Assembly: GCF_012932565.1 (NCBI RefSeq)
Contig: NZ_JABBYJ010000001.1
Location: forward strand, 2,046,001-2,110,000
Source of the DNA: Sneathiella limimaris
GTDB lineage: Bacteria > Pseudomonadota > Alphaproteobacteria > Sneathiellales > Sneathiellaceae
Direction of reading: 5' to 3'
Length of the DNA stretch: 64,000 bases
Both the position numbers and the translations under genes were made by a program. The first letter of the stretch is position 1; each line of letters begins with the position of its first letter. The notes beneath the pieces are model-generated. The model was not told where the DNA came from. It made no database searches and worked only from the letters and a program-made list of their open reading frames with translations. Of the stretch, positions 2,333 through 61,304 are shown in pieces.

Positions 2333-3319
2333 ATGAAAAAATTCCTGATTTTTCTGATTGCCCTGTTCTTGCTGTTTAACGCAGCAATTGCAGGGTTAAT
2401 TGGTTATGGATGGAATTTGTATAAGACTCCGGGTCCGCTTCAGACCGAAAAAATCCTAGTCTTAAAAAAGGGAAGCGGCCTTCGTCAAATTGCGACCCTG
2501 CTGGAATCTGAAAATATTATTCCTCATGAACTGGCTTTTATCCTTGGGGTCCGGCTTCAGTCCCTGGAGAAAAAACTGAAAGCTGGTGAATATGCATTCA
2601 CGCCAGGTATGACCGGGGAACAGGTGGCGGCACTGCTGGTCAGTGGTAAGTCGGTTGTTCATGGACTGACAATTCCCGAAGGCTTGCAAAGCCGCGAAGT
2701 CCTGGAGCTTATTAAAGCATCTGATATCTTGACGGGTGACATAACAGAAAGCCTGCCGGAAGGATCAATCCTGCCAGAAACCTATCATTTTCTGAGGGGA
2801 GACACCCGCGATAGCCTTATTCAGAGGATGAAGCAGGCATTTAATGCGGAAGTAGATGCCTTGTGGCAGGCAAACGGCCCCACCAAACATATCAAAAGTA
2901 AAAAGGACCTGATAACCCTTGCATCTATCGTTGAGAAGGAAACTGGACTTGCGAGCGAGCGCCCTCATGTGGCCAGTGTATTCCTTAACCGGTTAGAAAG
3001 GGGAATGCGCCTCCAGTCAGATCCTACTGTGATTTATGGAGTTACCAACGGACAATCTGATTTGGGCCGGCCAATTTCTAAATCCGATCTGGCAGCGGTA
3101 AATGACTATAACACTTATACGCGGGACGGCTTGCCGATAGGGCCTATCTGCAATCCCGGGTTAGATAGTCTTAAAGCGGTTCTTAATCCATTACAGACTA
3201 AGGATCTCTATTTTGTGGCAAGTGGGGATGGCGGACATCTCTTTGCTCGAACCTTGAAAGAGCATAACCGCAACGTCTACAAATGGCGCAAACTGATGAA
3301 AGAGCGTCAGAGTAACTAA
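2333..3319 (+). CDS. mltG: Endolytic murein transglycosylase MltG
   Basis: Inner-membrane lytic transglycosylase that cleaves nascent glycan strands and sets peptidoglycan strand length. The 328-residue protein has one N-terminal membrane segment (about residues 4-25), then the YceG/MltG domain with the Leu-Pro-Glu-Thr-Tyr motif (148-151) and the Ala-Ser-Ile-Val-Glu-Lys-Glu segment holding the catalytic Glu at about 201. Length matches the family. It follows fabF by 15 bases and may be cotranscribed. The fabF-mltG-(x)-yicC-gmk order is common in alphaproteobacteria as I recall it. Confidence 0.95.
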   Translation: MKKFLIFLIALFLLFNAAIAGLIGYGWNLYKTPGPLQTEKILVLKKGSGLRQIATLLESENIIPHELAFILGVRLQSLEKKLKAGEYAFTPGMTGEQVAALLVSGKSVVHGLTIPEGLQSREVLELIKASDILTGDITESLPEGSILPETYHFLRGDTRDSLIQRMKQAFNAEVDALWQANGPTKHIKSKKDLITLASIVEKETGLASERPHVASVFLNRLERGMRLQSDPTVIYGVTNGQSDLGRPISKSDLAAVNDYNTYTRDGLPIGPICNPGLDSLKAVLNPLQTKDLYFVASGDGGHLFARTLKEHNRNVYKWRKLMKERQSN

Positions 3320-3392: not shown

Positions 3393-4217
3393 ATGTCTGG
3401 AACAAGCGACTCAATTCAAACTTTATTGTTTCAACGCAGGCAGTTACGAGATTGCCTTCAAGAGCTGCGTGAGGAAATAAATCAGCTTCATGCTAAAGCA
3501 AATAGTTATGCAAACAGATCAAGTTTAAATAGCTCACTTCCTCAGGCTGATGACGTTTCTAAGCCCTCCCTGCCATCTGAGAAAGCTGATATGGCACCTT
3601 CTGTGGAGGTGTCCAGCCCTCTCTATACCAGTCCTGATACAATGACAGTTGAAGGGGTTGAGGAAGATTCTCAAGAAGCAGTTGCGCCCAAACCGGATCC
3701 TGTCTCAGCTCAAAAGATAAAAACTAATCCTGAAAGGGAGGCTGCAGTCTCACTGCAGATCTTGGATGGGGATAGTGTGAACCCAACCGGTGGAGAAGAA
3801 AAACGGCGCTTTGATCCTGTTTTAACACTTCCCCAGACCCCTTTGCGGAGCAAAATGGAGGCAGAACAACAACCTGAACCTAAACCTGCACCTGTTCCAA
3901 AAGAAGACCTGGTGGAGGAGGAAGAGCCTCTTCTTCTTACCGTGGAAAATGAGATCGGCGATGACAAAAAGCAAGAGACGATAATGTCTCACTTTAACAG
4001 GCAGCCTCAGACAGAAGTTGAAGGCCAAAGTCGTGATCTACCTGCAGATCCAGATCAAACAAAAGAGCTTCTTCATCATGCCATCTTGTTGGCAGGTTTT
4101 TTTTACATCACCCTTCTGCTGCAGGTAATCGGCTCCTCAACCAGCTTGACGCTGCAATTCAACAGGTTAAAGCCCTTCCCGAAGAAGCGCTCCGTAATGA
4201 AGCGCTGGAGAAATTGA
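3393..4217 (+). CDS. Unknown protein, N-terminal part of a frameshifted membrane protein
   Basis: I do not recognise a family. Of the 274 residues, the first 40 are basic/coiled-coil-like (Gln-, Arg-, Glu-, Leu-rich). A long disordered linker rich in Pro, Glu and Ser follows to about residue 225, then a short hydrophobic stretch around 231-250. The last 37 codons after the T8 run at 4097-4104 read as basic, low-quality sequence. The other frame is open across the same place and reads as a convincing amphipathic helix continuing into the next ORF. Joined by -1 slippage at T TTT TTT the product is 445 residues. Either this is one gene with a frameshift (real or a homopolymer sequencing error), or both products are made. 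It lies between mltG and yicC. Confidence 0.65.
   Translation: MSGTSDSIQTLLFQRRQLRDCLQELREEINQLHAKANSYANRSSLNSSLPQADDVSKPSLPSEKADMAPSVEVSSPLYTSPDTMTVEGVEEDSQEAVAPKPDPVSAQKIKTNPEREAAVSLQILDGDSVNPTGGEEKRRFDPVLTLPQTPLRSKMEAEQQPEPKPAPVPKEDLVEEEEPLLLTVENEIGDDKKQETIMSHFNRQPQTEVEGQSRDLPADPDQTKELLHHAILLAGFFYITLLLQVIGSSTSLTLQFNRLKPFPKKRSVMKRWRN
4097..4104 (+). other. T8 run with T TTT TTT slippery heptamer joining two ORFs
   Basis: Eight T residues sit so that the upstream frame reads GGT TTT TTT TAC. This is the X XXY YYZ layout for -1 ribosomal frameshifting and also a substrate for RNA-polymerase slippage. A -1 shift continues in an open frame through to the stop at 4729 without any stop codon. 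I found no strong downstream stem-loop or internal Shine-Dalgarno stimulator. Sequencing error in a homopolymer is an equally simple explanation. Confidence 0.6.
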
Positions 4218-4729
4218 AGGATGCTTATCGCAATGTGGTTGAGAAGACCTATCCGAGCAGTCATGTGAACGGGGAGACACTTGCTCAAAGTCGAGAAGTT
4301 ATTCCACTGTTGTTTGCTCTACCGTTGACGGTGGCGACTTTGGTTCTGGTTCTGATGCCACTTTTTCTTCTGCTGGGGCTGGTTGCTGACCAGACGTTAT
4401 CGTCTTCTTTGGCAATGTCGACAAAGCTATTATTTGCAGGCTTGATTGCAATTTCGTGGGGGGTGTCAGGTGCTCTGACCATTCAGTCGTTCCATATCGC
4501 GTTGCTGGCTCGTAAAGGCAAGTATCGTCGCGATCTTGTGAAAGGATACGGGGTCGAAGTGGTTGTTAGCGGTATGCTCGCGCTTATCCCCTATGTAACG
4601 CTTTACTTTCTTACTGATCATGAAACCGTTCTTATAACTTTCCTCAGCAATCTCTTGTCCTTTGGTTTAGGACTGGTTGGGGGCGGGTTTTTACATATCT
4701 GGCTCAATCGTAAAAGCCGGCAAGAATAG
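4214..4729 (+). CDS. Unknown four-helix membrane protein, C-terminal part of frameshifted gene
   Basis: The nominal start is a TTG at 4214 with no Shine-Dalgarno, inside coding-like sequence. The frame is open back through 4103, where the preceding residues form a Leu/Ala/Glu/Lys-rich amphipathic helix, so this is probably not an independent gene. The visible part (171 residues) has about four membrane segments, near residues 30-57, 65-90, 115-130 and 138-160, and ends in a short basic tail. I know no family for it. Together with the upstream disordered region it would make an inner-membrane protein with a long N-terminal cytosolic tail. It lies 71 bases before the likely yicC start. Confidence 0.6.
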   Translation: MKDAYRNVVEKTYPSSHVNGETLAQSREVIPLLFALPLTVATLVLVLMPLFLLLGLVADQTLSSSLAMSTKLLFAGLIAISWGVSGALTIQSFHIALLARKGKYRRDLVKGYGVEVVVSGMLALIPYVTLYFLTDHETVLITFLSNLLSFGLGLVGGGFLHIWLNRKSRQE

Positions 4730-4800
4730 TTCCGTGTCTTGTTATGGTCTTAAAATCCCGATATACAAAGTCACCTTAATACTTCTCAATGAGGCTGGCT

Positions 4801-5697
4801 GTGTCCCTACAAAGCATGACCGGGTTTGCCCGGACCAATGGAAACCACGATGATTATTCCTGGCTATGGGAATTAAAAAGCGTCAATGGTCGAGGACTCG
4901 AGATCCGCAGTCGTTTGCCCCTTGGATATGATGCTGTTGAAGAAGTGGGACGTAAAATCCTGAAAGCGACCTTTCAACGGGGGAGCGTGAACTTCCACTT
5001 GCAGCTGCATCATCAGGGTGGCAAGGCGGACTATCAGATCAATACGGAGTTTCTGAACGAACTGATTGAACTGTCCCGTGAAAAATCAGGACTTGCCGGC
5101 GTTAAATCCCCCCGGATTGATGGTCTTCTTGGACTAAAAGGGGTCATTGAGCCAATGGACAAGGCCTTGCCCGATGAGGACGAACGATCAGCCCTGGAAA
5201 CTGCCTTGATCAAATCATTCAAGGAAGCCGTCGAGAAATTGAAAGCCGCTAGGTTGGAGGAGGGGGCGCAACTTGCCCCTGTGCTGACTGCGCAGCTGGA
5301 TGAAATCGCCGATCTGACAAAAAGAGCTCAAGCAACTGCAGCTTTGCGACCGGAGGCGGTCAAGGAACGGATTACAAAACAGATCGATTTACTGCTTGGA
5401 AATACCGGAAATGCGGATGAGGAGCGGATAGAGCAGGAGCTTGCCATCCTGGCGACAAAGGCAGACATTTCAGAGGAAGTGGATCGACTTGCCAGTCATA
5501 TTGTGACTGCAAGAGATGTTCTGAACAGCGGCGCTGAGGAAGCAGTTGGTCGCCGCCTTGATTTCATCTGTCAGGAATTTAATCGGGAAACCAATACGAT
5601 CTGTTCCAAATCCAATGATAAGGAACTGACCCAAATCGGACTGGATCTGAAGGTGATCATCGATCGGTTCAGGGAGCAGGTTCAAAACATAGAATAG
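4801..5697 (+). CDS. yicC: YicC family endoribonuclease-type protein
   Basis: YicC proteins are conserved RNases linked to stationary-phase survival and sRNA turnover. The 298-residue protein shows the family N-terminus Gln-Ser-Met-Thr-Gly-Phe-Ala-Arg and the conserved C-terminal DUF1732 region with Arg-Arg-Leu-Asp-Phe and Asn-Arg-Glu-x-Asn-Thr. I chose the GTG at 4801 rather than the ATG at 4789. TGAGG at 4790-4794 is 6 bases before the GTG, and family members start a few residues before Met-Thr-Gly-Phe. It precedes gmk, the usual partner. Confidence 0.93.
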   Translation: MSLQSMTGFARTNGNHDDYSWLWELKSVNGRGLEIRSRLPLGYDAVEEVGRKILKATFQRGSVNFHLQLHHQGGKADYQINTEFLNELIELSREKSGLAGVKSPRIDGLLGLKGVIEPMDKALPDEDERSALETALIKSFKEAVEKLKAARLEEGAQLAPVLTAQLDEIADLTKRAQATAALRPEAVKERITKQIDLLLGNTGNADEERIEQELAILATKADISEEVDRLASHIVTARDVLNSGAEEAVGRRLDFICQEFNRETNTICSKSNDKELTQIGLDLKVIIDRFREQVQNIE

Positions 5698-5848
5698 AAG
5701 CGGTGATCATTATCTGCAAATGGCCTGAAAAATTATAAGACTTTGATAAATTTCCCCTGTTCTATTGCTTGGGCCGCACGGAAAAATTTGCTACATAGTC
5801 GAGACTTCGAAATTCAATATCCTCGTTTACAAAGTTGCAGGGAAAAGC

Positions 5849-6502
5849 GTGTCTGAAACTCCGTCTGATCGAATTCAAATTGACCGTCGTGGATTGATGT
5901 TGGTCCTGTCTTCACCTTCTGGAGCTGGAAAAACAACAATTTCAAAAGCGCTACTCCAGGATGATGACAACTTGTCTATGTCAGTCTCCGCAACAACGCG
6001 GAAGCCTCGACCTGGTGAGGTGGAGGGAAAAGACTATTTCTTCATGGAACCGGTTGATTTTAACCTTCTGATCAACCGGGATGAGCTTCTGGAACATGCC
6101 AAAGTGTTTGGAAACTACTATGGAACTCCGTCCGCACCTGTAAATGAAGCATTGGCTGACGGAAAAGATATCCTTTTTGATATCGATTGGCAGGGAACCC
6201 AGCAACTCGCACAAAAGGCAGGCGATGATCTGGTTAGTATCTTTGTTCTGCCCCCATCAACGAGTGCCTTGGAAAAACGGCTAAAAGCCCGCGCGCAGGA
6301 CAGCGATGAAGTTGTTGCCCAGCGGATGTCAAAAGCGGCTGAGGAAATCAGTCATTGGGCGGAGTATGACTATGTCGTCGTCAATGACGATATGGATCAG
6401 TGTATCGCCGAGGTAAAAGCAATTTTGAAAGCTGAACGGGTCCGCAGGTTCCGCCGTCCCGGATTGCTGAATTTTGTAAAAAGCCTGACCGAGGGTTATT
6501 GA
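5849..6502 (+). CDS. gmk: Guanylate kinase
   Basis: Phosphorylates GMP/dGMP to GDP/dGDP in the cytosol. The P-loop [10 protein letters not shown] is at residues 21-30, and the GMP-binding lid segment with Arg-Lys-Pro-Arg-Pro-Gly-Glu follows. The open frame extends upstream to 5765, but the GTG at 5849 is preceded by AGGGA (5839-5843) at 5 bases and gives the usual size, 217 residues. The stop overlaps the stop of the convergent rsmA by 7 bases, so no terminator separates them. Confidence 0.95.
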
Positions 6503-60495: not shown

Positions 60496-60792
60496 TTACT
60501 GAATGAAACCGGGGCAGAAATGATCGATCCCTTCCAGCAGGAGGGAAAGTAACTGCAACAGAATACCAAGCAGAGTGACCAGGAATACCGGCAGGGGGAG
60601 TAAGGAATTTAGTTTTCGGTCAATGCTCGCGCCGCTTTGCAGGGTTGCCCTGAGGTCAGGCTTTCGCGTTGCCTGCCAGTCCCGCCAGTAACTCCGTCCC
60701 AGGAAAAAGGCAGCATAAGTGGCAGGCAGGATCAGCAGCGTTGCGGCCAGCAGTTTCAGAAGGTCAAGGTCGGATTGACTGATGATAGGCAT
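60496..60792 (-). CDS. Hypothetical two-helix membrane protein
   Basis: 98 residues. Two hydrophobic helices (about 11-30 and 65-87) flank a basic loop with Trp, Arg and Lys. I know no family. It begins 12 bases after the HTH regulator gene on the same strand, so the two are probably cotranscribed under the promoter at 61226. A toxin role beside an antitoxin-like HTH protein is conceivable but not supported by any motif. No Shine-Dalgarno is visible before the ATG. Confidence 0.6.
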   Translation of the reverse strand: MPIISQSDLDLLKLLAATLLILPATYAAFFLGRSYWRDWQATRKPDLRATLQSGASIDRKLNSLLPLPVFLVTLLGILLQLLSLLLEGIDHFCPGFIQ

Positions 60793-60804
60793 GAGGCACG
60801 GCTC

Positions 60805-61197
60805 TTAATCATCATCCTCAATAGGATCTTCAAAGGTGATATGAACCGTTTTGCCAAGGGCAAGGGCGATCTTAAACAGGGACGAGAGGTCAGGCCCGTT
60901 TTTATGATAACCGGTGGCAATTCGCGAAATGACCGCGGGCTGTAATCCAGTTTCCTTTTCAATCTGCCGAAGTCCCTTGCCGGCTTTACTGATCTCACTA
61001 TGGACCAGTTCAGCGGCAACATCCCGCGCCAGATTGCCGGCAACGTCCTTCAGGACCTCTAGCCGTTCTTCTTTTGGCAGGTTGGCCAGCAGCTCTTTCA
61101 GGGTGGAGCCCATCGGCGTCCGATGCTCCATCAGCAATTTTAGCTCATCCGCCGCGGGGGCGGTGTTTATAATCGGTTGTGAATAGGTATCAGTCAT
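60805..61197 (-). CDS. HTH (XRE-like) transcriptional regulator
   Basis: 130 residues: an acidic/helical N-terminal half (about 15-75, Leu-Lys-Glu-Leu-Leu-Ala-Asn-Leu repeats) and a C-terminal HTH_XRE domain (about 80-125) with Gly-Leu-Arg-Gln-Ile-Glu-Lys-Glu-Thr-Gly-Leu-Gln-Pro-Ala-Val-Ile-Ser-Arg-Ile. A C-terminal HTH is typical of antitoxin-type regulators such as those of RelE/HigB modules, but no toxin of those families is adjacent. GGAG 6 bases before ATG 61197 supports the start. A near-consensus promoter with an overlapping palindrome lies directly upstream. Confidence 0.8.
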   Translation of the reverse strand: MTDTYSQPIINTAPAADELKLLMEHRTPMGSTLKELLANLPKEERLEVLKDVAGNLARDVAAELVHSEISKAGKGLRQIEKETGLQPAVISRIATGYHKNGPDLSSLFKIALALGKTVHITFEDPIEDDD

Positions 61198-61219
61198 CCC
61201 ATTCTCCGTTGATGTCTTG

Positions 61220-61243
61220 ATCAACAATATAAGTTGTGTTGAT
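61220..61243. promoter_or_regulatory. Operator-like palindrome over the HTH gene promoter
   Basis: ATCAACA (61220-61226), 10-base spacer, TGTTGAT (61237-61243), perfect arms, with further GTTGA/TCAAC half-sites on both sides. It covers the -10 element of the gene's promoter, so autorepression is the simplest reading. Confidence 0.55.
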
Positions 61244-61254
61244 GCAAAAGTCAA
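61226..61254 (-). promoter_or_regulatory. Near-consensus promoter for the HTH regulator
   Basis: On the minus strand TTGACT (61254-61249), 17-base spacer, TATATT (61231-61226). The leader to the ATG is about 22 bases. Confidence 0.6.
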
Positions 61255-61304
61255 CAATTTCGGATGATTCCCGGGCGGGAGGCGGGCCAGATAGGTCAAG
61301 AAAC

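Follow-up and report, generated by a model that had tools for sequence, protein, structure and literature searches.

In Sneathiella limimaris, the gene at positions 3393-4729 of the 64,000-nucleotide stretch of DNA analyzed (the window) is very probably an ordinary single-frame membrane-protein gene of the Sneathiellales minus one T, a judgment that takes together a recent mutation and an error of sequencing or assembly. The family reading frame is lost at a run of eight T residues (T8), the genes of the relatives are open across this point, and the sister genome carries nine T residues (T9) at the same place. A natural frameshift or a homopolymer error had been among the explanations offered by a first-pass annotation of the sequence, and this part of it is borne out. 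Its description of two ORFs joined at the T8 run was likewise correct in the coordinates, the 37-codon tail, the 208-codon -1 frame and the 445-residue joined product, as was its placing of the gene next to mltG.

Table. Features of the split gene and its neighbors (window coordinates).
Feature	Position	Strand	Remarks
mltG (Pfam YceG)	2333..3319	+	conserved upstream neighbor
Zero-frame ORF, 274 aa	3393..4217	+	stop TGA 4215-4217, 37 codons past TTT TTT
T8 run, point of family-frame loss	4097..4104	+	T9, in frame, in the sister genome
-1 frame, 208 codons	4103..4729	+	to TAG 4727-4729; remainder of the conserved family
TTG-started ORF inside the -1 frame, 171 aa	4214..4729	+	TTG 4214 overlaps the zero-frame TGA 4215-4217; GGAG 4207-4210
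yicC-like endoribonuclease gene	4789..5697	+	conserved downstream neighbor
Guanylate kinase gene (gmk)	5765..6502	+	after yicC

At the T8 run the frame of ATG 3393 reads GGT (4095) TTT TTT TAC. The zero-frame ORF consists of a conserved amino-terminal stretch (SDSIQTLL..QRR.LRDCLQELR), a long variable linker, the start of a conserved carboxyl-terminal block and, in its last 37 codons, a tail that does not belong to the family. The in-frame slippery heptamer T TTT TTT is followed by the open -1 frame, and the two frames joined at T8 give 237 + 208 = 445 residues. Since 20,000 single-base shuffles of 4103-4726 yielded no sequence free of stops in frame and the -1 frame aligns with the relatives from end to end, its openness is more than chance. 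The G+C content at its three codon positions (0.60, 0.38, 0.47) is as expected for coding sequence; the values are 0.56, 0.38 and 0.48 for mltG and 0.62, 0.37 and 0.52 for yicC. Both frames align end to end with a single block of the relatives, the window reading ...LLHHAILLAGFF and then LHHPSAAGN... and the sister ...TLHHAVLLAGFFLHQPSAAEN..., and homology, as judged from these alignments, locates the frame join at the T run.

The unshifted tail had been described as 37 codons of basic, poor sequence; the length was right, but the tail opens with a hydrophobic stretch (YITLLLQVI) and is not basic only. A chance hydrophobic helix in this tail was considered. The maximum 15-residue hydropathy in the window was 1.33, and the corresponding alternative frame of the 21 relatives was mostly lower (two were higher, at 1.41 and 1.75, and five were too short to score), so that the hydrophobicity of the tail is not a conserved feature. 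At 4207-4217 the sequence has the geometry of re-initiation at the end of a short ORF, with GGAG three bases 5' of a TTG that overlaps the TGA. The downstream ORF had been said to lack a proper start, and its start is indeed TTG, but the GGAG was overlooked. The 12-base string GGTTTTTTTTAC was found once more, on the minus strand close to the start of contig 1 (L001, G000:C1:149-160), where it lies too close to the contig end for the tract census described below.

All 21 relatives have a frame open through the T8 point, with at least 75 codons before it and at least 120 after it, and none needs a shift there. Their open frames span 289-523 residues, the 289- and 303-residue frames being clipped by contig ends, and their proteins read through the block that is split in the window. 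A conserved T7-T8 heptamer, for which an alignment of homologues had been proposed, did not emerge: the run is T9 in the sister, T7 in one relative, T6 in one and five or fewer in the other 18, so that just 2 of the 21 have T7 or longer. The Phe codons of a conserved aromatic-Leu-His-Pro stretch give rise to the run. On this alignment, the difference between the window and its sister is a one-unit homopolymer change and not a conserved recoding site. The locus thus has the features of a singleton homopolymer frameshift, with relatives intact at the point and a break at a homopolymer that differs by one unit (T8 vs. T9). In the available part of the study by Antonov et al. (PMC3711429), singleton frameshifted genes are regarded as likely indels or sequencing errors.

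When the downstream frame was searched against 40 genomes, 22 matched (own included), every one of them among the 24 genomes of its genus. The two congeneric genomes that lacked a match are 65 and 70% complete, and none was obtained in the 16 remaining genomes of the class. An alignment-based search of the order Sneathiellales matched 23 of 25 genomes, again counting its own, one of them from another genus of the family, where the gene has the same mltG and yicC flanks. Among good-quality Sneathiellales genomes the count was 18 of 18, own included. Class-wide, 7 of 385 genomes matched. Five of these, counting its own, belong to the genus, and the other two matched at 2.9e-12 and 3.9e-4; neither mltG nor yicC was matched in the DNA examined from these two. 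The inactivation of a gene present in every good-quality genome of its order would be unusual, which favors an error or a rescue over decay.

The sister genome, S. glossodoripedis JCM 23214 (G008), groups with the window in both the gene tree and the yicC tree (FastTree, 16 tips each, branch support left aside). At the site it reads GGT TTT TTT TTA, a T9 run that is in frame and encodes the conserved Phe-Phe-Leu. Its copy has a second break further on, a TAA after RKRSYLR. Across about 48 kb of this assembly (L058-L061) there are 8 apparent frame breaks in 7 conserved genes, including yicC, each seen against all three comparators (the window, G018 and G011), and the assembly is therefore a poor, error-prone public draft. 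The second break in the copy is probably of the same sort. Gene decay across the clade, which that break might have suggested, was dropped because the assembly is unreliable. An error in the T9 run itself is unlikely, since this run keeps the frame of the other relatives.

Downstream of the run, 32 of 42 conserved columns are kept in the window and 32 of 42 in the sister. In the last part, which is absent from the sister's copy, the window keeps 3 of 8. The gene-tree branch of the window is 0.83 and that of the sister 0.51 (0.26 and 0.20, respectively, in the yicC tree), a comparison that is not clean because the sister's copy is truncated. The 3 of 8 columns and the longer branch are hints of relaxation. 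The downstream frame is free of stops and keeps conserved residues as the sister does, which argues that the event is recent or artefactual; the kept residues and the somewhat longer branch would be consistent with an event that is recent and has brought no more than mild relaxation.

Two censuses bear on whether the window genome is prone to such breaks. In the first, 96 A/T runs of 8-9 bases were examined, and the geometry of a split gene was present only at T8 4097-4104. These came from stretches around 100 of 172 matches (overlaps counted), all on contig 1, with three tracts near locus ends skipped. The geometry required 100 codons on each side of the run, so that a break close to a gene end would escape notice. 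Thirty-one of the 96 runs lie inside ORFs of at least 120 codons, defined by their open frames alone; the 30 besides T8 lie inside ORFs that are open. As T8 alone among the 96 shows this geometry, a general homopolymer fault of the assembly is unlikely. However, distinguishing a single wrong T run from a real mutation would take the reads.

In the second census, frame changes in the window were flagged against four relatives, with 6 flags among 103 matched ORFs for G008, 0 of 83 for G011, 2 of 74 for G018 and 7 of 125 for G010. The split gene accounts for one flag of G008 and one of G018. Of the 13 flags outside it, 12 come from ORFs that lie opposite better-conserved genes on the other strand, or from a two-gene fusion in G008, and no further frame break in the window was backed by more than one of the four relatives. 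The sensitivity of this census is limited, since G011 and G010 failed to flag the split gene itself, so that breaks beside weakly conserved halves are missed. The remaining flag, at 60496-61299 on the minus strand, is seen against G008 only: two neighboring ORFs (98 and 164 aa) are matched in two frames by one ORF of G008, and the break may lie in the window or in G008.

We infer that the run changed from T9 to T8, that the change was recent, and that some residual slippage may occur on the shortened run. The change would be either a real replication-slippage mutation or a homopolymer error of sequencing or assembly. If T8 is real, most of the mRNA would yield a product of 274 residues that lacks the membrane domain; a minor full-length share may come from transcripts to which RNA polymerase adds a U, or from ribosomes that slip by -1, on U8.

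The possibility was considered that such slippage (U8 to U9 by the polymerase, a -1 slip on U UUU UUU, or both) yields enough full-length protein. This reading overlaps with the loss of one T if T8 is real, and it would account for a frame that is still open and keeps its conserved residues beyond a T8 run in a core gene of the order. The available part of the study by Baranov et al. (PMC1088944) describes disrupted ORFs that slippage would restore and allows for slippage on shorter runs in certain bacteria, and in the portion at hand of the study by Traverse and Ochman (PMC5574713) single-base insertions during transcription rise exponentially with run length. However, according to the same part of PMC1088944, a large proportion of genomes show evident selection against A/T runs once these reach nine nucleotides, so that T8 is expected to slip weakly. 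Sufficient rescue is unlikely. The stronger proposal that slippage at T8 is the sole source of a full-length core membrane protein in S. limimaris, with polymerase or ribosome infidelity or tract switching setting the product ratio, is quite unlikely.

Phase variation, in which a T8/T9 tract toggles an envelope protein between cells, would fit an in-frame T9 and an out-of-frame T8 at the same place in sister genomes. However, with one genome per species compared, the run is eight or longer in these two genomes only and 1-7 in the other 20 relatives, and it is explained by the Phe codons of the conserved motif; switching of this kind is very unlikely. A gene split by re-initiation, in which translation stops at TGA 4215 and restarts at the overlapping TTG 4214 to give a separate 171-residue membrane protein, is suggested by the TTGA overlap and the GGAG three bases upstream. 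It is highly improbable: the spacing from GGAG to TTG is short and the TTG encodes an almost invariant Leu (position 38), so that the overlap simply follows from the coding sequence. Programmed -1 ribosomal frameshifting with two products by design, one of the readings listed by the first-pass annotation, is hardly credible, although the heptamer is in frame and the shifted product matches the family across the join with no gap. The test that the annotation proposed, relatives with a single uninterrupted frame and no slippery run, goes against it: the 21 relatives need no shift at the point and 19 of them lack T7. The adjacent GGCAGG is off the Shine-Dalgarno distance usual upstream of frameshift sites. 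Downstream folding, assessed for hairpins, is no better than that of shuffles (z 0.47; best z -1.24 of 42 windows).

The loss of one T would affect a membrane protein. The predicted structure of the carboxyl-terminal part (mean pLDDT 80, pTM 0.62) has two helices and then a set of long ones compatible with four membrane segments. The model agrees with the four segments noted earlier in the downstream part, and fits a gene that encodes a membrane protein. The two window parts gave only matches below the cut-off in Pfam and none in NCBIfam; MgtE (Pfam PF01769) scored 16.5 bits against a curated cut-off of 27.6. At an E-value of 0.1, the 16 carboxyl-terminal parts of the window and 15 relatives gave scattered weak Pfam matches, MgtE in two and six other families in one each, the best E-value being 0.0011 for DUF6161. 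A sequence search of the PDB gave a best E-value of 0.72, and Foldseek found nothing at 0.001, its best being 1.1. The best VIA-align match to the model was the CGRP receptor (Z 8.8, rmsd 4.9, 130 aligned), a likeness that may reflect only a common helical-bundle arrangement. A second, shorter relative, with an open frame of 277 aa and a weak sub-threshold match to Pfam TgpA_N, lies elsewhere in one genome (L154, G006:C59).

The loci of the relatives include mltG in 19 of 21 cases, yicC in 20 of 21 and both in 18 of 21, the other three stopping at a contig edge. The gene belongs to an uncharacterised membrane-protein family that lies between mltG and yicC in Sneathiella, with no qualifying Pfam or NCBIfam model for the parts in the window. 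An envelope role for the protein would be a guess from its neighbors.

The locus carries a caution: where relatives are open across the site, an in-frame homopolymer heptamer and the long open -1 frame behind it do not amount to evidence of programmed frameshifting. If real, T8 would also be a natural test of slippage rescue. Programmed frameshifting of the dnaX type uses a slippery homopolymer heptamer, which the split gene shares, but here neither a downstream hairpin nor conservation was found. The mxiE and IS-element genes with runs of 9A or 9T, as the available part of PMC1088944 presents them, are similar in that overlapping frames are joined by an A/T run and the addition of one base brings back the long product; the run here is of eight, its state is not conserved, and slippage on it is putative. 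The closest likeness is the singleton 'fs-gene' of Antonov et al. (PMC3711429), in which the frame of one genome breaks at a homopolymer and the relatives are open across the point; as far as the accessible part of that study describes it, there is no essential difference from the gene split here, which is core to its order.
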